Shown here: positions 9,423 to 22,790 of the stretch, one piece after another
Position numbering within the stretch: the stretch's first letter is position 1
Layout: each line of letters begins with the position of its first letter
Virus record (IMG/VR): IMGVR_UViG_3300040801_000770
Coordinates: 1-22,987 of that record
Source of the DNA: a virus
Direction: 5' to 3' (one strand)
Length of the DNA: 22,987 bases
Program-made: the position numbers and the translations under genes
The notes under the pieces: generated by a model
Told to the model about the DNA's origin: nothing
Databases searched by the model: none
What the model saw: only the letters and a program-made list of their open reading frames with translations

Positions 9423-12400
9423 GTGTTCAGCTTCCGTGACGGCACACCGGCGGTAGACCCACCCGTCGATCCGCCGGTGTCCAGCGTCGCCGCCTTCGTC
9501 ACGGGACACAGCCTGAACCTGCAGGTGCCCGACATGCTCGCCGAGATCGCTCGCGAGCAAGGGGGCTCCTTCACCTGGCGTGAGCAGGGCGTAGCCGGCG
9601 GGGCGCTGGAGCAGCGGTTTAACGACCCGGCCACAGAGAGCCGGACCTACATGGTCGATTACACGACCGAGATCCCGACGGGAAACTGGCCGGTGTGGAT
9701 CAGCCCGCCGTCGGTTCCGCGCAGCCCGGATGTCGTGAACACGTCCAGCACCGTGGAGGACGTCGACTTCGGCTTCCAGCTCTGGATCGACTACCTCCGC
9801 ACGCACAACAATCAGCAGATCTGGTTCTACGAGGTCTGGCACAACACGCTCGGCGATGCGCCGGGCGAGTTCGACACGTTCAGCCCCACGCGCAACTACC
9901 CCTGGCTCGATCGGCTCCAGAGCGACCGCGGCATGTGGCGCGGCTGCGTCGAGCGCGCTCGCCTGAACAACCCGGACATGAACATCAACATGATCCCGGG
10001 CGCCTCCGTGTTCCAGGCGGTCATCCGCGCCGGCATCGCGGGCGAGATCCCGGGCTACTCCGGCGATCTGGCGTACTGGCAAGACCTGCTGTTCCTCGAC
10101 GCGATCCACATGCGCAACCGCGCGGCCTACATCATGGGTCTGACGTGGTACGCCTGCCTCTACGGGCAGCGAGCGGACGCCGCGACGGGCAACGGGTACG
10201 TCGGCCGAGACGGCGACCCCGTGGAGGACTTCCAGAACGGCCTTGGCGTCGACCCGGCCACGGCGTACGAAACGCTTGACTGGACGCCTGAAGCAAATGA
10301 GGCGATCAAGGACATTGTGTGGAAGGTCTGCCGCGAGGAGCCGCTGACGGGCCTGGTCGCGGGATTCGACCCCGAGCACCGCGCGCCTGGCGTGGACAAC
10401 CCGGTGACGCCCGGCGCCACGCTCACGATCGACAGCGACGGCCTCAACGGGTTCGGCACGACGCAGGGGCAGGTCTGGATCGGCGACCGCGACACCTACG
10501 CAGCGTCGGGCGGCACGAACGGCTCGCTTCTGCGCCAGTGTACCGTGACGGGCTGGGACAACGACCAGGTGACGGTCACGGTTCCAACGGAGGCTTTCTT
10601 CACTCCAGCCAACGCGCTCTACAGCGTGGGCCTGCCGTATGCGGCCCGAGCCATGGGCGAGGACTACCGCGACCGCTGGATCTACGTGCTCGACGATCAG
10701 GGCGCGGTGATCCCCTACGGGAACCGCGAAGGCCGGCAGGTCGAGATCGACACGCCGGAGGGACTGTCCCCGCGTGCGCAGCCCGCGAACAGCTACGTCA
10801 ACGGCCTGCAGCCGACCTTCCCGTGGTCGAGCGTCGAGATTCGCTACTTCCGAAACCTGATCCATCAGGCGGACGGCCTCACGCCGCAGTCGGGCACTGA
10901 TGGCTTCCACTACGACGTGGCGACGACGCAGGCGCGGAACGTGCCGAATGGCGCCGTGTTCTCGATCCCGGTCGGCGTGGACATCACGAGCCCTGCCGCA
11001 ACGCTCTACGCGGGCAACTACGTCGTGCGCTGGACGGGGCAGGCCGAGGTCCGCATCGCGGATGGCGCGTGGCAGTCGAGCGGCCAGTTCACCGTGAACC
11101 TCTCGACCATCAACGGTCTGTTCCTCGAGGCCCGCAACGAAACGGGCGGGACCGTCGCGACAGACTTCCTGACCGAACTCACGATGATCCGGTACGACGA
11201 GTACCCGGGCGCGACCGACGCGGAGCGAATCGCTGCAGCGCTGGCGGACTACGACGCCGGACTCGCCGCGATGGACGAGCGCATCTTCCACCCGCAGTTC
11301 ACGTCCATGCTGCGCGAGATCAACTGCCGGTTCTGGCGGACCTACAACTGGCAGTGGGAGACGCTCTACTTTGAGTACGCCCCGATGTGGTCGCAGCATC
11401 GCGTACCAGGCGCGCTGACGTGGGGCGGTGCGGTGCCGTTCGAAGTTGAATGGGCGCTCGCTCGCGCGTTCGACATGGACCTTGCGCAGAACATCCCGAT
11501 GGGGATGGATCAGGACTGGATCACCGGCTTCGCGACCCTGCTGCGGCAGGAATACGGAGACGTGCTCGCTGCAGGGCGCCGGGCGTACTACCTCGAGCTT
11601 GGAAACGAGACTTGGAACCTGTCGCTCCCGTACCTCTACCCGGCGCACCAGGCGCTCGGACGCACGGCAGCGCGGGATGTCTACACGCGCTGGGCGCTTC
11701 GCCCGGCCGGCTCACAGACGTTCACGGTCTACGACGCGAACGGCAACGTGGTGCCGCACGGCTACAGCAACGGTCAGGAGCTCTGGTTCCACAGCGGTGT
11801 GGCCCCGACGGGCGCCGAGATCGACTTCTCGCACGCGATCTCGAACGTCACCGCGACGACATTCGACGTCCCCGCGTTCCCCACGAACTCGATCGACACG
11901 TGGGTGAACTTCATGGCGATCGACACGGCGACGCTGTCGGCCGGCTTCCCCACCATTCAGGAGCGGCACGAAGGGCACGGCAGGGCCACTGCGCTCATGT
12001 ACGGGTGGCTCCAGGGGGTGCTCACGGCAGAGCAGTGGGCCAGCGTCGTCAAGGCGATGCCGGGACAGGCCGGCGCGACGGACGACATGGAGGCCCGTCT
12101 GCTGGCCTACGAGGCGGCCGTGACGGCGAACGGCCTGAGCATCGGGCTCGTCGACGAGGCGCTACTGGCGAACTACTACTACACCGACTGGACACAGCCG
12201 ACGTTCGCAGCTCGGGCCGCCACGGTCGATACCGCCGGCTTCGTGGCGGGCATGACCGCGATGCTGGTGCCCATGCAGGCCCATAACCCGAGCATGGGCT
12301 TCTCCTTCTACGAAGGCGGCAACCACGACGGCGGGGACACGTTCGACTACGCCGGCATCGGGTGGCCGTTCGCGATCACCGAGCACCACGTCACGGCTTG

Positions 12401-12575
12401 GGACGACTGGATGAGCGGCATTCTCGCTGCGTTCCCGCAGGTCACTCGAGGCGCGTACTACTGCGACGCCGGGTACCTCGACCCGTGGACGATGGTAGGC
12501 TACCAAGGGCAGGACCCGAAGATCCCGATTCATCGCTACTTCGTCGCCCATCAGGGCTACATCGAGCGAGCTTGA
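9423..12575 (+). CDS. Large bifunctional surface enzyme: SGNH-like esterase plus GH-A-like glycosidase
   Basis: This 1050-residue protein starts with GTG at 9423, just after the previous stop. The N-terminal domain (about 20-310) has an SGNH-like opening TGHSLN, with S30 as candidate nucleophile, and ends with D226-A-I-H229, which fits the SGNH D-x-x-H block. A beta-sandwich (IPT/TIG-like) follows at about 325-410. The C-terminal part (about 590-1050) resembles clan GH-A TIM-barrel glycosidases: AQNIPMGMDQDWI, then LELGNETWN with N728-E729 as candidate acid/base, and later FYEGGNHDGG with E964 as candidate nucleophile. Two similar beta modules (VLDDQGAVIPYG at about 422-433 and VYDANGNVVPHG at about 768-779) suggest duplication. 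It has no signal peptide, so it is probably virion-attached and acts on host polysaccharide by deacetylation plus backbone cleavage. Catalytic residues are read by pattern only. Confidence 0.8.
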   Translation: MFSFRDGTPAVDPPVDPPVSSVAAFVTGHSLNLQVPDMLAEIAREQGGSFTWREQGVAGGALEQRFNDPATESRTYMVDYTTEIPTGNWPVWISPPSVPRSPDVVNTSSTVEDVDFGFQLWIDYLRTHNNQQIWFYEVWHNTLGDAPGEFDTFSPTRNYPWLDRLQSDRGMWRGCVERARLNNPDMNINMIPGASVFQAVIRAGIAGEIPGYSGDLAYWQDLLFLDAIHMRNRAAYIMGLTWYACLYGQRADAATGNGYVGRDGDPVEDFQNGLGVDPATAYETLDWTPEANEAIKDIVWKVCREEPLTGLVAGFDPEHRAPGVDNPVTPGATLTIDSDGLNGFGTTQGQVWIGDRDTYAASGGTNGSLLRQCTVTGWDNDQVTVTVPTEAFFTPANALYSVGLPYAARAMGEDYRDRWIYVLDDQGAVIPYGNREGRQVEIDTPEGLSPRAQPANSYVNGLQPTFPWSSVEIRYFRNLIHQADGLTPQSGTDGFHYDVATTQARNVPNGAVFSIPVGVDITSPAATLYAGNYVVRWTGQAEVRIADGAWQSSGQFTVNLSTINGLFLEARNETGGTVATDFLTELTMIRYDEYPGATDAERIAAALADYDAGLAAMDERIFHPQFTSMLREINCRFWRTYNWQWETLYFEYAPMWSQHRVPGALTWGGAVPFEVEWALARAFDMDLAQNIPMGMDQDWITGFATLLRQEYGDVLAAGRRAYYLELGNETWNLSLPYLYPAHQALGRTAARDVYTRWALRPAGSQTFTVYDANGNVVPHGYSNGQELWFHSGVAPTGAEIDFSHAISNVTATTFDVPAFPTNSIDTWVNFMAIDTATLSAGFPTIQERHEGHGRATALMYGWLQGVLTAEQWASVVKAMPGQAGATDDMEARLLAYEAAVTANGLSIGLVDEALLANYYYTDWTQPTFAARAATVDTAGFVAGMTAMLVPMQAHNPSMGFSFYEGGNHDGGDTFDYAGIGWPFAITEHHVTAWDDWMSGILAAFPQVTRGAYYCDAGYLDPWTMVGYQGQDPKIPIHRYFVAHQGYIERA

Positions 12576-12583
12576 GGTAACCG

Positions 12584-13546
12584 ATGGCCACGATTGTCGC
12601 GGGACAGATCGCTCTAGGCTTCAACTCAGGGTCGGCCGTTTCTGCGCAGATTCTGCCTGCGACGACCACGCCCGGCAATTCCGCCATCATCTTGGCAGGT
12701 GGCCCGCTGGGCGCCACGATCGCTTCTGCGGTAGACGGCAATGGCAACCCGCTGACGGAAGTAGGAACGCCTGTAACCGACGCGTTCGTGCAGGTTCGAC
12801 AGTTCACGACCGGGGCGATCACTCCTGGCACTGACCGCGCAACGATCACCTGGAGCGCGTCGGGCGACACGTTCATACTGATCGGCGAGGCTGTGGGTGA
12901 TGTAACCGGTGTCGCCGGAAGCCTCACGAACATGCCGTTCCGCAACCTCTCGGGCTCGACGCCGCCCGGGGACACCATTGCGGTTCCGAACGACGCCTCG
13001 ATCATCATGAGCACGGGTTACACGGGCCCGGGTGGCGCTACTCCGACGTTCGGTGGCGGCACGGTCGTTGCGCCTGACGGTGCGACCCTGCCGAACTTCG
13101 ACTACGCCGGCTTCCGCAACGTGGCGACGGCCGACCCTGCGGAGGTGATCGGCTGGGCAGGGTTCCCGTTCAACGCAGAGTTCGGTGGCTGGGCGGCCGT
13201 CTTCGAAGACGCTGGCGGCGCTACGCCGATCGATGGCGGCGGCACGGAGACGATCACCTACGAGGACGGGACCACTGCGGGCATGGCGCCTGCGACGGTC
13301 ACGGACGTGGTGCAGGATGAGACGGGCACGCCGATCGCGAATCAGACCGGCATCGCATGGTCCTGGTTCGACGCGTTCCCGGACGCCAACGCTCCCGACT
13401 CGAGCGGCACGGGCGAGACCACGGACGCTTCGGGGAACATCCAGCTCACGGTGTCGACGCTGCTGCAGGTCGGCCAGACGGGATACCTCGTCATCGAGCT
13501 GGGTGATGGGCGAGTCGCAGTATCGAAGCCAGCCGTAGGCTTCTGA
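12584..13546 (+). CDS. Putative tail-fibre or virion-surface protein with Gly/Ala/Thr-rich beta structure
   Basis: This 320-residue protein starts with ATG at 12584, with GAGG about seven bases upstream. The sequence is rich in Gly, Ala, Thr and Ser and has few charged residues: TIVAGQIALGFNSGSAV, then ILPATTTPGNSAIILAGG, with several short beta-strands; it has no signal peptide and no catalytic motif. Residues about 215-235 contain IDGGGTETITYEDGTTAG, a copy of the DGGG repeat that dominates the next gene, and the C-terminal 90 residues look like an Ig- or big-type beta domain (VVQDETGTPIANQTGI). Its composition suggests an exposed virion protein, possibly a fibre component that carries or receives modules from the neighbour. 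Confidence 0.6.
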   Translation: MATIVAGQIALGFNSGSAVSAQILPATTTPGNSAIILAGGPLGATIASAVDGNGNPLTEVGTPVTDAFVQVRQFTTGAITPGTDRATITWSASGDTFILIGEAVGDVTGVAGSLTNMPFRNLSGSTPPGDTIAVPNDASIIMSTGYTGPGGATPTFGGGTVVAPDGATLPNFDYAGFRNVATADPAEVIGWAGFPFNAEFGGWAAVFEDAGGATPIDGGGTETITYEDGTTAGMAPATVTDVVQDETGTPIANQTGIAWSWFDAFPDANAPDSSGTGETTDASGNIQLTVSTLLQVGQTGYLVIELGDGRVAVSKPAVGF

Positions 13547-13549
13547 GCC

Positions 13550-14113
13550 ATGGCGCTGATCGCGCACGACGGCACAGCGCTCGTAGCGCCGGCTGCGTTC
13601 ATCGATGGCGGTGGCGCGGAGTCGCTCTCCTGGTCTGACGCTGCGGTAGCTGGACTGCTGCTGGATGGCGGCGGCTCCGAGGCCATCACGTGGGCCGATG
13701 CGTCCGCCACGTCCATCCCCGGCCAGACCATCGACGGCGGCGGCACGGAATCGCTGGTCTGGGCTGAAAGCTCGCTGGCCGGGCTTCTTCCTGGAAGCGC
13801 CGAGCCGCAGACGATCGTATGGGCCGAGGCCTCGGTCTCCGGCGTACTGCCGGGCATCGTCGATGGTCCGTACACGATCACCCTGGTGGACGCGACCACC
13901 TACGGCATCGCGCCGTCGCAGACCCCGCTCGACGGAGGTGGCACCGAGGCGCTGACCTGGGCAGAGACGTCCATCGCCGGCCTCTTGCTGGACGGAGGTG
14001 GCACCGAGGCGCTGACCTGGGCAGAGACGTCCATCGCCGGCCTCTTGCTGGACGGTGGCGGTGGTGCAAGCATTCCGCCGCTGGCGTTCCACCACCTGTT
14101 CAGGACGCTTTGA
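13550..14113 (+). CDS. DGGG-repeat virion-associated protein
   Basis: This 187-residue protein starts with ATG at 13550, three bases after the previous stop. Nearly the whole length is made of about eight imperfect units built on DGGGxEaltWaetsiaGLL, e.g. IDGGGAESLSWSDAAVAGLL at about 18-37 and two identical units at 128-147 and 148-167, encoded by a perfect 60-bp tandem duplication. Central units are degenerate (EPQTIVWAEASVSGVL and VDGPYTITLVDATTYG). Each unit could form a beta-hairpin stacked into a solenoid or fibre. It has no signal peptide. It probably helps build a tail fibre or spike or mediates attachment to the surface. The family is not known to me. Confidence 0.65.
   Translation: MALIAHDGTALVAPAAFIDGGGAESLSWSDAAVAGLLLDGGGSEAITWADASATSIPGQTIDGGGTESLVWAESSLAGLLPGSAEPQTIVWAEASVSGVLPGIVDGPYTITLVDATTYGIAPSQTPLDGGGTEALTWAETSIAGLLLDGGGTEALTWAETSIAGLLLDGGGGASIPPLAFHHLFRTL
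13931..14050 (+). repeat. Perfect 60-bp direct tandem repeat (two copies)
   Basis: Copies 13931-13990 and 13991-14050 are identical along all 60 bases, and a third partial copy starts at 14051 with GACGG before diverging. Each unit encodes 20 residues (DGGGTEALTWAETSIAGLL plus one Leu). Exact identity at the DNA level between adjacent copies, in contrast to the divergent older units, points to a recent slippage or unequal-exchange duplication. Confidence 0.95.
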
Positions 14114-14115
14114 CC

Positions 14116-14745
14116 ATGGCTCTCGTGCTCAGGCAATCAACGGCGGTCGACGTGCTGATCGGCCCATTCGTCGATTCGACCGACGGCTACACGGCTGAGA
14201 CCGGGGTCAGCCCTTCGGTGCGCCTGTCCAAGAACGGGCAGAACGTGGTCGCCAAAAACGACGCCACGACGCCTGTCCACGACGAGAACGGGTACTACAA
14301 CTGCGAGCTGAACGCGACCGATACGAACACGGTCGGGACGCTGGTGCTGTTTGTGGCTGGCTCGGCCACTCACCTGCCCGTGCGCCACGAATACCAGGTG
14401 ATAGAAGAGGCCGCATATGACGCGATGTATGCCACGAGCGCCGATCCCGTTCTGGACGCGGCTGGCATCAGGTCGGCGGTGGGGCTGGCTTCTGCGGATC
14501 TGGACACGCAGCTCGGCGCAATCCCGGACGACGTGTGGAACCGCAACATCGTGGAGCCATCAAGCGTGCCGGGGACCACGGCGCAGGCTGATGACGCGCT
14601 CGGGTTCATCGTGGCGAGCATTGCAAACCCGATTGACCAGACTTCGAGCAACTTCACCCTTCGGAACCGTGGCGACAGCGCCAACATCGGCTCTCGCTCT
14701 GTCACGGATGACGGCACGACGTTCGAGAAGGGCGCTCTGAGCTGA
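14116..14745 (+). CDS. Conserved phage virion protein (tail-associated)
   Basis: This 209-residue protein starts with ATG at 14116, two bases after the previous stop. It begins MALVLRQSTAVDVLIGPFVD, then RLSKNGQNVVAKNDATTPVH and DENGYYNCELNATDTNT. From memory, this matches a widespread phage protein with the words VLIGPFxDxTDGxTAETGL, RLSKNG and HDxxGYYxxxLxxTDTNTxG, usually next to tail-fibre genes in podo- and siphophages, function unknown. The first 100 residues are the conserved beta domain; the rest has a helical spacer. It probably belongs to the tail tip or adhesin complex with the neighbouring genes. Confidence 0.65.
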   Translation: MALVLRQSTAVDVLIGPFVDSTDGYTAETGVSPSVRLSKNGQNVVAKNDATTPVHDENGYYNCELNATDTNTVGTLVLFVAGSATHLPVRHEYQVIEEAAYDAMYATSADPVLDAAGIRSAVGLASADLDTQLGAIPDDVWNRNIVEPSSVPGTTAQADDALGFIVASIANPIDQTSSNFTLRNRGDSANIGSRSVTDDGTTFEKGALS

Positions 14746-15104: not shown

Positions 15105-15414
15105 CCTGCTCGCCGGCATCGGCGTGGACAAGACCCACCCGTTCCGCAAGGACTGCGAGGCTCTGTTTGAGAACGTGAACCGTCGGCGGTACGACGAGGC
15201 TGCGGAGCACCTGCTGCGCCTCGCGACCCAGTACAGGGAGCGCAAGGACTGGGACCGCAACCGGCAGGCGTGGGGCGAGTTCGCGATGCAGATTGACGGG
15301 CTTGTTGACGCCCTGAGAGGGCCGCTTGGCGTCCGCATGTTCCGGGATGCCGTGGGCAAGGTCGCCCGAAGCCGAAGGCTGTCGTACACGGAAAAGCGCC
15401 TGGAATCGCTCTGA
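15088..15414 (+). CDS. Hypothetical protein upstream of terminase
   Basis: This 108-residue protein is read from ATG at 15088; an ATG at 15040 in the same frame would add 16 residues but overlaps the previous gene more, and neither has a strong ribosome site. It begins MGSPTDLLAGIGVDKTHPFR and continues as a charged, helical sequence (RRRYDEAAEHLLRLATQYRE and DRNRQAWGEFAMQIDGLVDA). Its stop shares an A with the ATG of the terminase small-subunit gene (TGATG). Position immediately before the terminases suggests a role in packaging or head assembly. No domain was recognised. Confidence 0.55.
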   Translation: MGSPTDLLAGIGVDKTHPFRKDCEALFENVNRRRYDEAAEHLLRLATQYRERKDWDRNRQAWGEFAMQIDGLVDALRGPLGVRMFRDAVGKVARSRRLSYTEKRLESL

Positions 15415-15752
15415 TGGCTGAGAAGAAAGAGAAGACCTACAGGGGTGACACCCGCACCCGCGCGCACCGGATCAGAGCAGTCCGGCAGGAGGAGTTGCGG
15501 CAAAAGCTTGCTGCGCAAGGACACGAGCAGCACATTCTTGATTGTGCGGAGAAAATCGGGAATGTTGACCCGCAGGAAAGCCACGCTGACGTAGAGGTGC
15601 GGAAGTGGAAGGCGAAAGCCGAAATCCACGCCAAGCTCCTCGACAAGTACATCCCCGCCCTGAAGGCCGTGGAGATGGAGGTGGACGCGTCCGAAGCCCT
15701 CACCGAACGCCTTACGGCGGCATTGCATCATGTCCGCAACCGCAACGCCTGA
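15414..15752 (+). CDS. Terminase small subunit (probable)
   Basis: This 112-residue protein starts with ATG at 15414 (TGATG) and overlaps the large terminase gene by 23 bases. It is highly charged and helical: MAEKKEKTYRGDTRTRAHRI, then LAAQGHEQHILDCAEKIGN, then a lysine-rich helix KWKAKAEIHAKLLDKYIPAL. The pattern of a short N-terminal basic region, a helical pair and an acidic C-terminal helix before the large subunit is typical of small terminases, which recognise the packaging site. The sequence has no clear HTH, so the assignment rests on position and composition. It is part of the packaging module with the gene that follows. Confidence 0.6.
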   Translation: MAEKKEKTYRGDTRTRAHRIRAVRQEELRQKLAAQGHEQHILDCAEKIGNVDPQESHADVEVRKWKAKAEIHAKLLDKYIPALKAVEMEVDASEALTERLTAALHHVRNRNA

Positions 15753-17211
15753 CATCCTGACGCAGATCGCTGCGGAGTGTTACGGAGACCCGCTCGGCTG
15801 GGTTCAGGTGGCGTTCCCGTGGGGCAGGGGTCAACTAGAGCAGTACGAGGGGCCGGATAGCTGGCAAGAAGACTTCCTGGAGGAGTGGGGCGAGCTGATT
15901 CGCGGCCGAGGCTTTGACGGCTCTGGACCTGTCGAGCCGATCCGCATGTCTCGTTCCTCCGGCCACGGGATAGGGAAGTCCGCGCTCATGGCGTGGATCA
16001 ATCTGTTCCTCATGTCGACCCGCCCGCAGTGCAAGGGCACGGTTACAGCCAACACGAGCCCGCAGCTCGAAACGAAGACGTGGCCTGAGCTGAACAAGTG
16101 GCATCAGGTCTGTCTGTTCCGCGATTGGTTCAAGGTCTCGTCCGGGCGTGGGGCGATGCGTATCGCTGCGGTAGGGGCTGAGAGCACTTGGCGCATTGAC
16201 GCTCAGACCTGTGCAAAGGAGAACTCGGAAGCCTTCGCCGGTCAGCACAACGCGCAGTCTTCGTCCGTGTACCTGTTTGACGAGGCGTCCGCCGTGCCTG
16301 ATGAGATATGGCAGGTTGCAGAGGGCGGACTGACGGACGGAGAGCCGCACATCATCGTCTTCGGCAACCCTACTCGGCGTAGCGGGAAGTTCTATGAGGT
16401 GAACTTCGGTCGGCTGCGGCACCGCTGGAATCATGGTGTCGTGAACGCCGAAAACGTGGCGATGACGAACAAGGAGCTGCACAGGCAGTGGGCGGACGAC
16501 TGGGGCAAGGACTCGGACGCATACCGCGTGCGGGTGCTGGGCCTGCCGCCGCAGCAGGGTGATTTCCAGTTCATCGCATCTGATGACATTGACCGGGCCA
16601 TGTCGCAGGACGTGGAGAAGGACCGTGGTGCCGCGCTGGTGATTGGCGTGGACGTTGCGCGCTTCGGCTCTGACCGCTCCGTCATTCGGTTCAGGCGCGG
16701 CCAGGACGCCCGCAGCATTCCGCCTCGGGTGTATCGTTCGCTTGATACCATGCAGCTTGCGGCGCGCGTAGCTGAGGTGCTGGACGAGTACCCGCAAGCG
16801 ACGTGCTTCATCGACGGCGTTGGTGTCGGCGGTGGCGTGGTGGACCGCTTGCGACAGCTTGGCTACCGGAACGTGGTGGACGTGAATGCCGGAGCCCGGC
16901 CGACTGACCGCAGGAAGTTCCTGAACCTGCGCGCCGAAATGTGGAGCCGGATGCGCGACTGGCTGCGTGGTGGCGGGTGTGTAGAGTCCAGCTCGGACCT
17001 GCGTGCAGACCTCGAGGCGGTAGGCTACGGGTTCAATGAGAAGCAGCAACTAGTCATCGAGAGCAAGGAAGCCATGCGTCGCAGGGGGGTAGACTCTCCT
17101 GACGATGCGGACGCGCTGGCGCTGACGTTTGCGCAGAACGTAGCCAGGGCGGACATGGGCGGCAGGGCGTCAGCCGTTGTCGCGGTGCGTGACATCGACC
17201 CATTCGAGTGA
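15730..17211 (+). CDS. Terminase large subunit (ATPase/nuclease)
   Basis: This 493-residue protein is a well-formed large terminase. The ATPase part has Walker A SSGHGIGKS (76-84), Walker B VYLFDEAS (180-187) and coupling motif FGNPT (211-215). The RuvC-like nuclease part carries D308 in GVDVARFGSD, D362 in FIDGVGVGG and the acidic DSPDDADA run with D458, D459 and D461 as candidate metal ligands. The enzyme pumps DNA into the procapsid and cuts it. The start at 15730 overlaps the previous gene by 23 bases. Its length is normal for the family. It heads a head-assembly block followed by portal and capsid genes. Confidence 0.95.
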   Translation: MSATATPDILTQIAAECYGDPLGWVQVAFPWGRGQLEQYEGPDSWQEDFLEEWGELIRGRGFDGSGPVEPIRMSRSSGHGIGKSALMAWINLFLMSTRPQCKGTVTANTSPQLETKTWPELNKWHQVCLFRDWFKVSSGRGAMRIAAVGAESTWRIDAQTCAKENSEAFAGQHNAQSSSVYLFDEASAVPDEIWQVAEGGLTDGEPHIIVFGNPTRRSGKFYEVNFGRLRHRWNHGVVNAENVAMTNKELHRQWADDWGKDSDAYRVRVLGLPPQQGDFQFIASDDIDRAMSQDVEKDRGAALVIGVDVARFGSDRSVIRFRRGQDARSIPPRVYRSLDTMQLAARVAEVLDEYPQATCFIDGVGVGGGVVDRLRQLGYRNVVDVNAGARPTDRRKFLNLRAEMWSRMRDWLRGGGCVESSSDLRADLEAVGYGFNEKQQLVIESKEAMRRRGVDSPDDADALALTFAQNVARADMGGRASAVVAVRDIDPFE

Positions 17212-17873: not shown

Positions 17874-18006
17874 GGAGAAGAACCTGCAGCGCGAGCAGCA
17901 GGACGAACTGCGGATGCAGGGGCAGGAGAAGCGCCGCCGCATTTCGCTGATGGGGTCGGGCGGGCGCAGGTCGCTGCTGTCCGGCGCTGAAACGGGAGTG
18001 ATGTGA
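17839..18006 (+). CDS. Conserved small phage protein before portal
   Basis: This 55-residue protein starts with ATG at 17839, with GGAG about nine bases upstream, and its stop shares an A with the portal ATG (TGATG). It is helical and strongly charged (LTAEEKNLQREQQDELRMQG) with a basic patch (KRRRIS) and a C-terminal GGRRSLLSGAETG. A G-R-R-S-L-L-(T/S)-G-like ending is a hallmark I associate with small proteins encoded just upstream of portal genes in podophages. A role in portal or head assembly is likely by association. Confidence 0.65.
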   Translation: MKMPKAPGLTAEEKNLQREQQDELRMQGQEKRRRISLMGSGGRRSLLSGAETGVM

Positions 18007-19592
18007 TGGATCATCCGGTCGAGAAGCTGGGCACGGTAGATGCGCTGATCGACCGGTTCGGGAAGGCTCGCTCGCGTCGTGCCAACTGGGAAGACATGTG
18101 GCGGGATGCGTACGACTACACGATGCCCGCCAAGAACCTCTGGGTGGAGCGCACGAAGGGCAATTTCCGTCGTCGGAAGATATTCGATAGCACGGCTGTA
18201 AACGGTGTGCCGACCTTCGCGACCCGCATCATGGCGGCGCTGACGCCTAGCTGGACGAACTGGGCGAAGCTCGAACTGGGCGCGGCGGTGGACGATGACG
18301 CCGAGCTGGGGCTGGACCCTTCGCAGTGGCCCGACTACGCGGGCATGACGGCGCTCGAGGCGGTGGAGGAGATTGGCGAGACGCTGTTCCATTACCTGCA
18401 CCACAGCAACTTCGCATCGCAGGCGTTCGAGGCGTATCAGGACCTTGCTGTGTCGACGGCGAGCATTCACATGGACTGGCGCGATGGCGGGTTCGTGTTC
18501 ACCGCTGTTCCGCTGTCCGAGCTGTTCCTGGAGGAGGGTCCGAACGGGAGCGTCGAGACGCAGTGGCGCAAACTGAAGGTTCCCGCTCGGAACATTGCGC
18601 AGACGTGGCTCGGCGCCGAGGTGGCGGGCGAGCTGGCCGGGCTGGTGGAGCGCGCGCCGGACACCGAAGTCGACATCATTGAGGGCGTGGTCCATGTGCC
18701 GCCCAAGCGCCCCGGAGACGACCCTGAATACTGGTTGGTCGTCATGGACGAGACGCGCAAGACGATGCTGCTGGCATCCCCTCACGGCGAATCCAGCCCG
18801 TACATCACGGCGCCCTGGTCTCGCACGCCGGGCGAGATTTACGGGCGTGGCCCGGTGATTTCTGCGCTGGCTGACATCATGACGGCCAACAAGATGATGG
18901 AACACAAGCTTATTGGCGATGCTTTCGCCGTGATGGGGCTGTGGACCGGCGTGGATGACGGAGTGTGGAACCCGCACACGGCACGGCTGAAACCGGGGAC
19001 CATTCTGCCGGTGGCGTCGAATGACGGGACGAACCCCTCCATTCGCCCACTGCCGCTGGGCGGTGCGCCGCAGATCGTGGACGTGGATCTCGAGGCGCTG
19101 CGCCGGAACATCGAGAAGCAGCTCTTCTCGAACCCGCTGGGTGACATCCAGGACGCTCCGGTGCGGACGCTGGGCGAAAACATGATGCGAATGCGCGACG
19201 TGCTGGAGAAGGCTGGCGCGTCGTTCTCGCTGCTGGAATGGGAGTGGGCCGCGAAGATCGTCAAGCGCGGCGCGTTCCTGCTGGCAAGGGAGGGCATCAT
19301 TCCGCCGCTGCGCATCGACGGGCAGGACGTGGCGATCAAGTTCTCCTCGCCGCTGGCGCAGGCTCGTGACGCTCAGGAGCTGACCAGCATCGTGCAGTAC
19401 GCGCAGACGATGGGTGCCGTTGCGCCGATGGAAGCGCCGTTCGCGTTCAAGACGGAGGAGGTGTCCGACTACGTGCGCGAGAAGACGGGTCTGCCTGAGC
19501 GGCTGTTCCGCACGCAGGAGGAGATACAGGAGGCGATGGCGCAGATGGCTGCGATGCAGGGGGGTGCCGGTGGACAACAGCAGCCCGTTTGA
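18006..19592 (+). CDS. Portal (head-tail connector) protein
   Basis: This 528-residue protein starts with ATG at 18006 (TGATG). It shows the features of podophage head-tail connector proteins (T7 gp8-like): an N-terminal helix with RSRRANWEDMWRDAYDYTMP, then the region around YGRGPVISALADIMTANKMM at about 279-298, and a C-terminal helical clip region (LLEWEWAAKIVKRGAFLLAR) plus a Gln/Met-rich tail. The portal is a dodecameric ring at one vertex, through which DNA is packaged and ejected. Its length is right for the family, and the flanking genes (large terminase, Bbp19-like, scaffold) agree. Confidence 0.9.
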   Translation: MDHPVEKLGTVDALIDRFGKARSRRANWEDMWRDAYDYTMPAKNLWVERTKGNFRRRKIFDSTAVNGVPTFATRIMAALTPSWTNWAKLELGAAVDDDAELGLDPSQWPDYAGMTALEAVEEIGETLFHYLHHSNFASQAFEAYQDLAVSTASIHMDWRDGGFVFTAVPLSELFLEEGPNGSVETQWRKLKVPARNIAQTWLGAEVAGELAGLVERAPDTEVDIIEGVVHVPPKRPGDDPEYWLVVMDETRKTMLLASPHGESSPYITAPWSRTPGEIYGRGPVISALADIMTANKMMEHKLIGDAFAVMGLWTGVDDGVWNPHTARLKPGTILPVASNDGTNPSIRPLPLGGAPQIVDVDLEALRRNIEKQLFSNPLGDIQDAPVRTLGENMMRMRDVLEKAGASFSLLEWEWAAKIVKRGAFLLAREGIIPPLRIDGQDVAIKFSSPLAQARDAQELTSIVQYAQTMGAVAPMEAPFAFKTEEVSDYVREKTGLPERLFRTQEEIQEAMAQMAAMQGGAGGQQQPV

Positions 19593-21113: not shown

Positions 21114-21944
21114 ATGTCCAAGAACCTTTCCGCTGTCGCCCAGACCGAGTTCGACGACCAGGTACGTCAGGCGTACCAGAAGGGGTCGATGCTCCGCGAT
21201 ACGGTCACGATCCGTAGGGCGACGGGCGACACCTACAAGTTCCGCGAAATGGGCAAGGGTCTGGCGAACCAGAAGCCGAGCCAGGCCGACGTGACGCCGA
21301 TGGATGTCGCGCACAGCCAGCCTACCGCAACGCTCACGAACTGGAACGCTCCCGAGTACACCGACATCTTCGATGCTGCCGAGGTGAACTTCGACGAGCA
21401 GCAGGAGCTGGCGGAAACCATCGCCATGGCGCTGGGTCGTCGGGTGGACCAGCTCATCATCGACGCGATGGATTCTGCTACGGCGGATGCCAGCGTGGCG
21501 GAAGGCGGCACGGGCCTTTCGGTGGCGAAGACGCTGGAAGCGTCCCGCATCCTGAACGATGCCGGCGTACCCAGCTCGGAGCGCACGTTCGCTCACTCGG
21601 CGATTGCTCTCCAGCAGATGCTGAACGAGGACAAGGCGACCAGCTCCGACTACCAGACCGTCAAGGCGCTGGTGAGTGCGGAGCTGAACACCGGCTTCGG
21701 TTTCACCTGGAAGTGCATCGAGTCGCGTGACGAGGGCGGTCTGCCGCTCGCCACGAACGAGCGCACGTGCTTTGCGTACCACAAGGGCGCTGTCGGCTAT
21801 GCCGAGGGCCTTGCCCCGCGTACCGAGGTGAACTACGTCGCTCAGAAGACGTCTTGGCTTGCCAATGGCATTCTCAAGGCGGGCGCGGTCGTTCGTGCAA
21901 CCGATGGCTTTGTCGACGTTGGCGTCGACGAGAACCCGGCATAA
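21114..21944 (+). CDS. Major capsid protein
   Basis: This 276-residue protein has ATG at 21114, with GAGGA nine bases upstream. It begins MSKNLSAVAQTEFDDQVRQA and matches the P22-type/BPP-1-like podophage coat family: VTIRRATGDTYKFREMGKG near the N-terminus, DIFDAAEVNFDEQQELAETI at about 84-103, a central region with QLIIDAMDSA, and a C-terminal segment with RTEVNYVAQKTSWLANGILK and GVDENPA. Coat proteins of this kind build the T=7 shell together with the scaffold. Its position after the scaffold and before the cement-like protein and tail tubular genes agrees. It has a dedicated upstream promoter and leader. Confidence 0.9.
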   Translation: MSKNLSAVAQTEFDDQVRQAYQKGSMLRDTVTIRRATGDTYKFREMGKGLANQKPSQADVTPMDVAHSQPTATLTNWNAPEYTDIFDAAEVNFDEQQELAETIAMALGRRVDQLIIDAMDSATADASVAEGGTGLSVAKTLEASRILNDAGVPSSERTFAHSAIALQQMLNEDKATSSDYQTVKALVSAELNTGFGFTWKCIESRDEGGLPLATNERTCFAYHKGAVGYAEGLAPRTEVNYVAQKTSWLANGILKAGAVVRATDGFVDVGVDENPA

Positions 21945-22235: not shown

Positions 22236-22790
22236 ATGGCGTCCAGGGTCGACATCTACGACCTGGCCTCGCGAGCAATTGGCGCGGGGCCGGTCGACAG
22301 CACGGGTGGAAGCTCTGTCGTGGAGCAGACGCTGGACGCTGTGTTCGATGTCACCCTGGATGCCGTGCTTCAGACGAACCGGTGGACGTTCTGCACGCAA
22401 CTCATCAGTTTGAACCGGCTGACCGACCCGCCTCCGTTTCGTTACACCTACGCATTCCAGATGCCGGCCAATGCGCTGAAGCTGTGGCGCGTCGACCCGA
22501 ACACTCCGTATCAGGTGGCTGGCGACCAGATTCTGTCCGACCAGCTCGAGCTTGATGCGGACGTAACCCTGCGCCCTGAAATCGGCCAGCTTCCTCCGCT
22601 GTTTGTGCGGGCGCTGTACTTTGAGCTGGCGGCGGCAATCGCCATCCCGATCACTCAGAACGCGGACATTGCGACCGCGATGCAGCGTCAGGCGCATCGT
22701 CTGTGGCCGCAGGCACGCAACGCAGACGCGCAGCAGGACCCGCCGCCCGCCATCGTGGACTCGCCGTTCACTGCCGTCCGGAACATCTAA
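22236..22790 (+). CDS. Tail tubular protein A-like (head-tail adaptor)
   Basis: This 184-residue protein starts with ATG at 22236, four bases after the previous stop. It is helical, with VDIYDLASRAIGAGPVDSTG, then LDAVLQTNRWTFCTQ, FRYTYAFQMPANALKLWRVD and a C-terminal helix. The R-Y-x-Y-A-F-Q-x-P segment and the W-T/R-F-C/A words recall the T7 gp11-like tail tubular A family, which forms the ring below the portal. Its length is usual for the family. It abuts the tail tubular B-like gene, whose GTG follows its TAA directly. Confidence 0.8.
   Translation: MASRVDIYDLASRAIGAGPVDSTGGSSVVEQTLDAVFDVTLDAVLQTNRWTFCTQLISLNRLTDPPPFRYTYAFQMPANALKLWRVDPNTPYQVAGDQILSDQLELDADVTLRPEIGQLPPLFVRALYFELAAAIAIPITQNADIATAMQRQAHRLWPQARNADAQQDPPPAIVDSPFTAVRNI

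Follow-up and report, generated by a model that had tools for sequence, protein, structure and literature searches.

The DNA analyzed here, called the window throughout, consists of one IMG/VR virus record, 22,987 bases in length, with a G+C content of 65%. Genes for the large terminase (TerL), portal, major capsid, and tail proteins were located in it (Table 1), and the families of the portal and tail proteins suggest that it comes from an uncultured short-tailed phage. Near the TerL, portal, and capsid genes lies an open reading frame (ORF) that encodes a tandem repeat array. This gene belongs to a tight same-strand run, in which the stop of the preceding gene ends at 13546 and the following gene starts at 14116. 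Its product has a pI of 4.05, contains one Arg, and lacks Lys, Asn, and Cys altogether.

Two further frames were noted nearby. The same gene run encodes a 1,050-aa protein (9423 to 12575) for which Pfam, PHROGs, NCBIfam, and INPHARED tblastn searches gave no match. On the minus strand, a 489-aa open frame (12626 to 14095) runs antisense to the array gene and the gene before it and is likely a by-product of the high G+C content.

TABLE 1 Features of the repeat-array locus and structural genes of the window
Feature	Position	Strand	Details
Preceding gene	12584-13546	+	320 aa; no family match; one repeat unit between two parts
Single full repeat unit within preceding gene	13232-13291	+	DGGGTETITYEDGTTAGMAP
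Repeat-array protein ORF	13550-14113	+	187 aa; ATG at 13550, stop at 14111-14113
Unit 1, full	13604-13663	+	DGGGAESLSWSDAAVAGLLL
Unit 2, full	13664-13732	+	23 residues
Unit 3, full	13733-13801	+	23 residues
Unit 4, degenerate	13802-13861	+	Lacks DGGG, keeps TIVWAEAS; unit-profile score of 35.8 for the segment at 13793
Unit 5, degenerate	13862-13930	+	DG only (without GG); Leu replaces Trp
Unit 6, full	13931-13990	+	First member of the identical pair
Unit 7, full	13991-14050	+	Second member of the identical pair (60/60)
Stub DGGGGA	14051-14068	+	Gly-rich linker ahead of the tail
Conserved C-terminal tail	14069-14110	+	SIPPLAFHHLFRTL; last 14 residues, not repeat
AGGA, putative ribosome-binding site of next gene	14102-14105	+	Within tail codons; function proposed from sequence
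Fiber-like protein	14116-14745	+	209 aa; first ~108 residues are a conserved N-terminal domain
TerL	15730-17211
Portal	18003-19592		PF12236, 1.2e-80
Major capsid	21114-21944		PF19821, 1.9e-60
Tail protein	22236-22790		phrog_394

Structure and recent growth of the repeat array

The array gene begins and ends where an initial sequence-only reading had placed it and does encode a repeat protein. That reading had described eight units of about 20 residues; the repetition stood, while the count was too high, with five full units, two degenerate ones, and a stub. Nor are the units equal in length, units 1 to 7 having 20, 23, 23, 20, 23, 20, and 20 residues. The motif DGGGxExxxW occurs in five of them, starting at 13604, 13664, 13733, 13931, and 13991, and 18 residues at the start of the protein and 14 at its end lie outside the repeat. 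When the array was compared with itself at successive offsets, optima were found at 20, 43, and 66, giving a period of 20 to 23 residues. With the most recent copy (residues 148 to 167) removed, the top self-shift score was 89, at a shift of 43 residues (20+23), while the maximum in 1,000 shuffles was 20; the protein repeat is thus real even without the new copy. A relaxed unit pattern gave six matches in the window and none in 100 shuffles. Units 1 and 6 differ at 8, 0, and 12 places at codon positions 1, 2, and 3, and since differences between units concentrate at third codon positions, the array is both coding and constrained.

The perfect 60-bp tandem copy noted earlier is exact and in frame: positions 13931 to 13990 match 13991 to 14050 at 60/60 bases. 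The match continues for 5 bases into the sequence from 14051 and does not extend leftward. Tandem Repeats Finder (TRF) reported 13927 to 14055 as 2.2 copies of 60 bases (98%, score 251), the runner-up among 14 rows scoring 48, and units 6 and 7 form the sole exact repeats of at least 20 bases within the window. Other pairs of full units in the gene are identical at only 28 to 40 of 60 bases, so the 60/60 pair is much younger than the rest, which supports the earlier suggestion that the array has recently grown. Slippage is a plausible mechanism, although the sequence would look no different after unequal recombination. It is very improbable that the second copy is an artifact of metagenome contig assembly. 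The record is an IMG/VR contig, but short reads usually exceed the 65 bases of the repeated stretch, and the remaining array is real without the second copy.

A sixth full unit, which the sequence-only reading had missed, lies within the preceding gene. It scored 50.5 on the unit profile, for which the best unrelated segment scored 20 (background mean, -18; standard deviation, 8). Since the preceding gene carries this unit between its two parts, the repeat units may derive from an interdomain linker. No phage relative of the preceding gene was found; a proposed match of its first domain to the body protein at locus L041 was dropped (BLASTP E value of 1.3).

AlphaFold2 modeling, proposed earlier as a way to look for a solenoid, gave pLDDT values of 40.7 for the whole array and 44.2 for a part with three aligned rows, which are too weak for a fold search and uninformative about stacked coils. 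According to the account in PMC11795689, AlphaFold2 can yield confident but false beta-solenoids on perfect 20-residue repeats.

Searches for relatives of the array

Searches of PHROGs, NCBIfam, PDB sequences (best E value, 0.34), and plasmids (best E value, 3) turned up no homologue of the array, and its best Pfam E values (0.71 and 0.79) fell far below the curated cutoff, with no match above it. INPHARED tblastn returned only Littlefix (two records, E value of 4), a region that was inspected and discarded as chance. In IMG/VR, the protein search found no array homologue, the strict unit pattern found none, and unit alignment gave 20 stretches of which 0 were confirmed. The relaxed pattern picked out 17 IMG/VR stretches with one match each; all 17 were translated, and 0 were arrays. 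Nine relaxed-pattern stretches (L013, L016, L021, L022, L024 to L027, and L029) encode one unrelated protein with PDGGGTEFVYYP. Another stretch, at positions 2823 to 3422 of L028, has a lone unit-like DGGGSENVTWTD in a short phage protein of another kind, a likeness that is selected in that it was found via the pattern. Unit alignment against GTDB genomes gave 12 stretches, 0 of them confirmed. Relatives of the portal, TerL, and capsid genes do exist, and the loci examined (L002 to L006, L011, and L012) contain no repeat unit. A literature search on the DGGG repeat found no paper. The reach of these scans is limited to close relatives and fixed patterns, so that distant arrays could escape them, and records very near the window may be missing from the searched sets. 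The repeat as such is still an orphan.

One way to read such an orphan array is as a linker expansion that is neutral or in decay, that is, slippage-prone DNA that is tolerated and has no role dependent on length or number of sites. This would fit with the exact, new copy, with the two degenerate units, and with the failure of the searches to find a relative that has the array. The differences between full units, however, fall at third codon positions, with 0/20 second positions differing between units 1 and 6, and both the reading frame and the tail are intact. We regard neutral expansion as improbable.

A conserved domain heads the downstream gene

The 209-aa fiber-like protein encoded downstream has no match in Pfam or PHROGs. 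Relatives of its N-terminal domain (N-domain) were found in the complete Microcystis phage Mvi-Yong1342-1 from INPHARED (record PP496355.1, locus L007; 35% across the whole protein), in two IMG/VR contigs, and at 14 genome_contigs loci from varied bacterial assemblies and one archaeal assembly; one of these 14, L043, is a 23-residue match and was dropped. The N-domain is rare in sampled genomes (1/398, 4/392, and 2/400, in three phyla), these counts including the genome on which each sample was centered. In relatives, it often heads much longer proteins, such as those of 937 aa at L034, 645 aa at L008, and 407 aa at L009. Tandem arrays in or near N-domain genes occurred at 4 of the 21 loci examined: 93 bases x 2.6 copies at L008, 123 x 2.1 at L031, 45 x 2.3 at L041, and 138 x 1.8 at L063, all periods divisible by three.

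Three other observations concern these loci. At L042, the cassette comes after an internal virion protein (phrog_511, 9.6e-147). The N-domain protein at L037 (199 to 2124), on a contig binned as an archaeal genome, opens with a hydrophobic, signal-peptide-like stretch. At L036, a long ORF that lies upstream of the cassette contains a 39-base tandem array of 4.7 to 7.3 copies (300 to 583).

A short C-terminal tail recurs ahead of the N-domain

The array protein ends in a short tail of 14 residues, and this tail also ends the protein encoded just before the N-domain at 18 of 24 distinct places, the window included. The places were found by script, counting the first N-domain match of each gene; L043 and duplicates were excluded (L033 equals L008, and L044 to L056 are largely repeats of earlier loci). 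The 18 comprise 15 as picked by the script plus L030, L062, and L063, where a more distant upstream ORF carries the tail; these three were among seven script-picked preceding ORFs with no visible tail. At four places no tail was seen (L009, L034/L047, L057, and L060), and at two the search for a preceding ORF found none (L055, where the contig ends, and L059). A GG run stands directly ahead of the tail in 12 of the 18. In the window, the last DGGG stub occupies the place of this run, so the array joins the tail via its own unit start.

From 14 other tails, picked by eye, we built a tail model and ran it against 2,801 ORF C termini. The top untrained matches were L062 (E value of 3.2e-6) and L063 (0.024), followed by the array protein in third place with a modest E value of 0.076 and L030 in fourth (0.31). 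All four precede an N-domain; the next match, an unrelated one, had an E value of 1.8. Since the training tails had been picked by eye, we also conducted an unselected test with the 21 nonwindow neighbor C termini exactly as the script picked them, wrong picks kept. The last 16 residues of the array protein averaged 18.67 in this test, a score reached by 0/2,779 control C termini (mean, 11.03; standard deviation, 1.13). With 24 residues, 1/2,779 controls reached the score of the array protein, and this was L062, itself a gene that precedes an N-domain. The mutual likeness of the 21 picks was 16.34, compared with a mean of 11.46 and a maximum of 13.08 in 500 random sets. A small ORF before TerL in the window (15414 to 15752), which ends in TERLTAALHHVRNRNA, scored near the top of the controls, probably by chance.

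The proteins that carry the tail are otherwise mostly dissimilar. With the last 30 residues removed, only 4 of 153 pairs of these bodies were similar at an E value of <1e-3. Pfam scans of ten bodies found laminin-G-like domains in two (6.6e-21 and 6.3e-16), at L033 (in sequence the same as L008), which has the tail, and at L034, which does not. The other eight gave no match above the curated cutoff, as did the bodies at L030 and L031, so a description of the bodies as host-binding modules rests on two of them, one tail-less. At L035 (5439 to 7770), two successive cassettes are found, each pairing a tail-bearing body with an N-domain gene after it, and their tail types differ.

Similarity among tails followed similarity among N-domains (Mantel r of 0.39; 0/5,000 permutations), whereas similarity over the 44 residues before the tail did not follow it significantly (r of 0.12; 438/5,000). 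Linkage by itself would also make the tail and the N-domain covary, and plain linkage of the two is the main rival to a docking role. On this account, which we consider unlikely, the tail is kept for expression or simply by linkage: the 3' end of the gene would hold coupling signals and a ribosome-binding site for the gene that follows, body swaps would break just ahead of them, and the array would be the body left by the last exchange. Besides the covariation, it can draw on the AGGA inside the final codons ahead of the ATG at 14116 and on the TAATG or TGATG stop-start overlaps at L007, L008, L032, L041, and L061. However, the best-kept part of the tail, IP..xHH, is about 5 to 13 codons from the stop, on the 5' side of the ribosome-binding site, and its codons vary while its residues stay. 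Over the last 16 residues of the tail-position proteins, His is encoded by CAC 17 times and by CAT 12 times, and the four Pro codons are used 10, 4, 4, and 4 times, which indicates that the peptide is what is kept. Moreover, at L042, L036, L030, L062, and L063 the tail lies about 122 to 313 bases ahead of the N-domain, where coupling is unlikely.

A candidate exchangeable body in a modular appendage cassette

Given a tail shared by mostly unrelated bodies ahead of the N-domain, the array appears to fill an exchangeable body slot. The array itself has recently gained one exact unit. Our preferred reading, to which we give about even credence on the basis of sequence comparisons, is that a modular virion-appendage cassette has the array ORF as its exchangeable body gene. 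The earlier proposal that the protein belongs to an appendage finds support in this context, through the tail common to body proteins that precede a fiber-like N-domain. According to the preferred reading, the tail would dock the array protein onto the neighboring fiber-like protein, the Gly-rich stub would act as a hinge, and the acidic, Lys-free array would serve as a spacer or display body. Gain or loss of 60-base units in frame, through slippage or unequal exchange, would then alter the array length in 20-residue steps, or the number of displayed sites, and leave the docking end untouched.

A more specific version seems to us possible but rather doubtful. It takes the C-terminal 14 to 16 residues as a tag that fixes interchangeable bodies (a lectin-like domain, a linker array that grows, or a long protein resembling a spike) to one conserved fiber-like partner, and it proposes that this phage swapped a folded body for an array that was then lengthened unit by unit.

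The conserved tail is a more useful result than the repeat. If it is a docking tag, it would give a short signature by which to find exchangeable surface proteins of uncultured phages, one that would reach bodies with no recognizable homologue, and it would mean that docking peptides can be C terminal. The array, for its part, would then be well suited to the question of whether the addition of 60-base units lets phages tune the length of an appendage.

Comparison with known systems

Repeat arrays of variable length have been described in other phages. Campylobacter phages CP220 and CPt10 likewise carry tandem arrays with shared polymorphisms; length mixtures occurred in one plaque-purified stock, and slip-strand mispairing was proposed (PMC2853527). 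In contrast to the array described here, every array but one in those phages is reported to be located outside genes. In the tail-fiber gene of Enterococcus phage EfV12-phi1, in-frame tandem duplications arose under coevolution (PMC6365445); the unit reported in that system is 1.8 kb and arose during coevolution, whereas the unit here is 60 bases and its duplication was seen once. Collagen-like prophage fiber proteins of E. coli resemble the array protein in having repeat segments between conserved ends and length steps of whole repeats (PMC3368898). The repeats given for those fibers are Gly-X-Y and heptad repeats, in contrast to the 20- to 23-residue unit with DGGG and Trp found here (PMC3368898); Gly-X-Y triplets are absent from the array, whose period is 20 to 23 residues.

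For the tail, a literature search for C-terminal peptides conserved among the modular receptor-binding proteins of phages found no paper. Receptor-binding proteins of K1E, K1-5, SP6, and Klebsiella phage groups dock by 7- and 11-residue N-terminal peptides (PMC6872550). As in the cassette described here, these proteins combine variable bodies with a short conserved peptide, which in those phages attaches them to a fiber-like partner (PMC6872550). They differ in that the peptide described for them is N terminal on the second protein, whereas here it is C terminal and forms the last 14 residues; the anchor there has a T4gp10-like domain, whereas the partner here has a conserved N-terminal domain with no Pfam or PHROG match (PMC6872550). 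One short conserved peptide on unrelated bodies was nevertheless what we found (18/24 places, with 4/153 body pairs similar). By analogy, the closest known kind would be receptor-binding proteins attached by short conserved peptides, although those peptides are N terminal.
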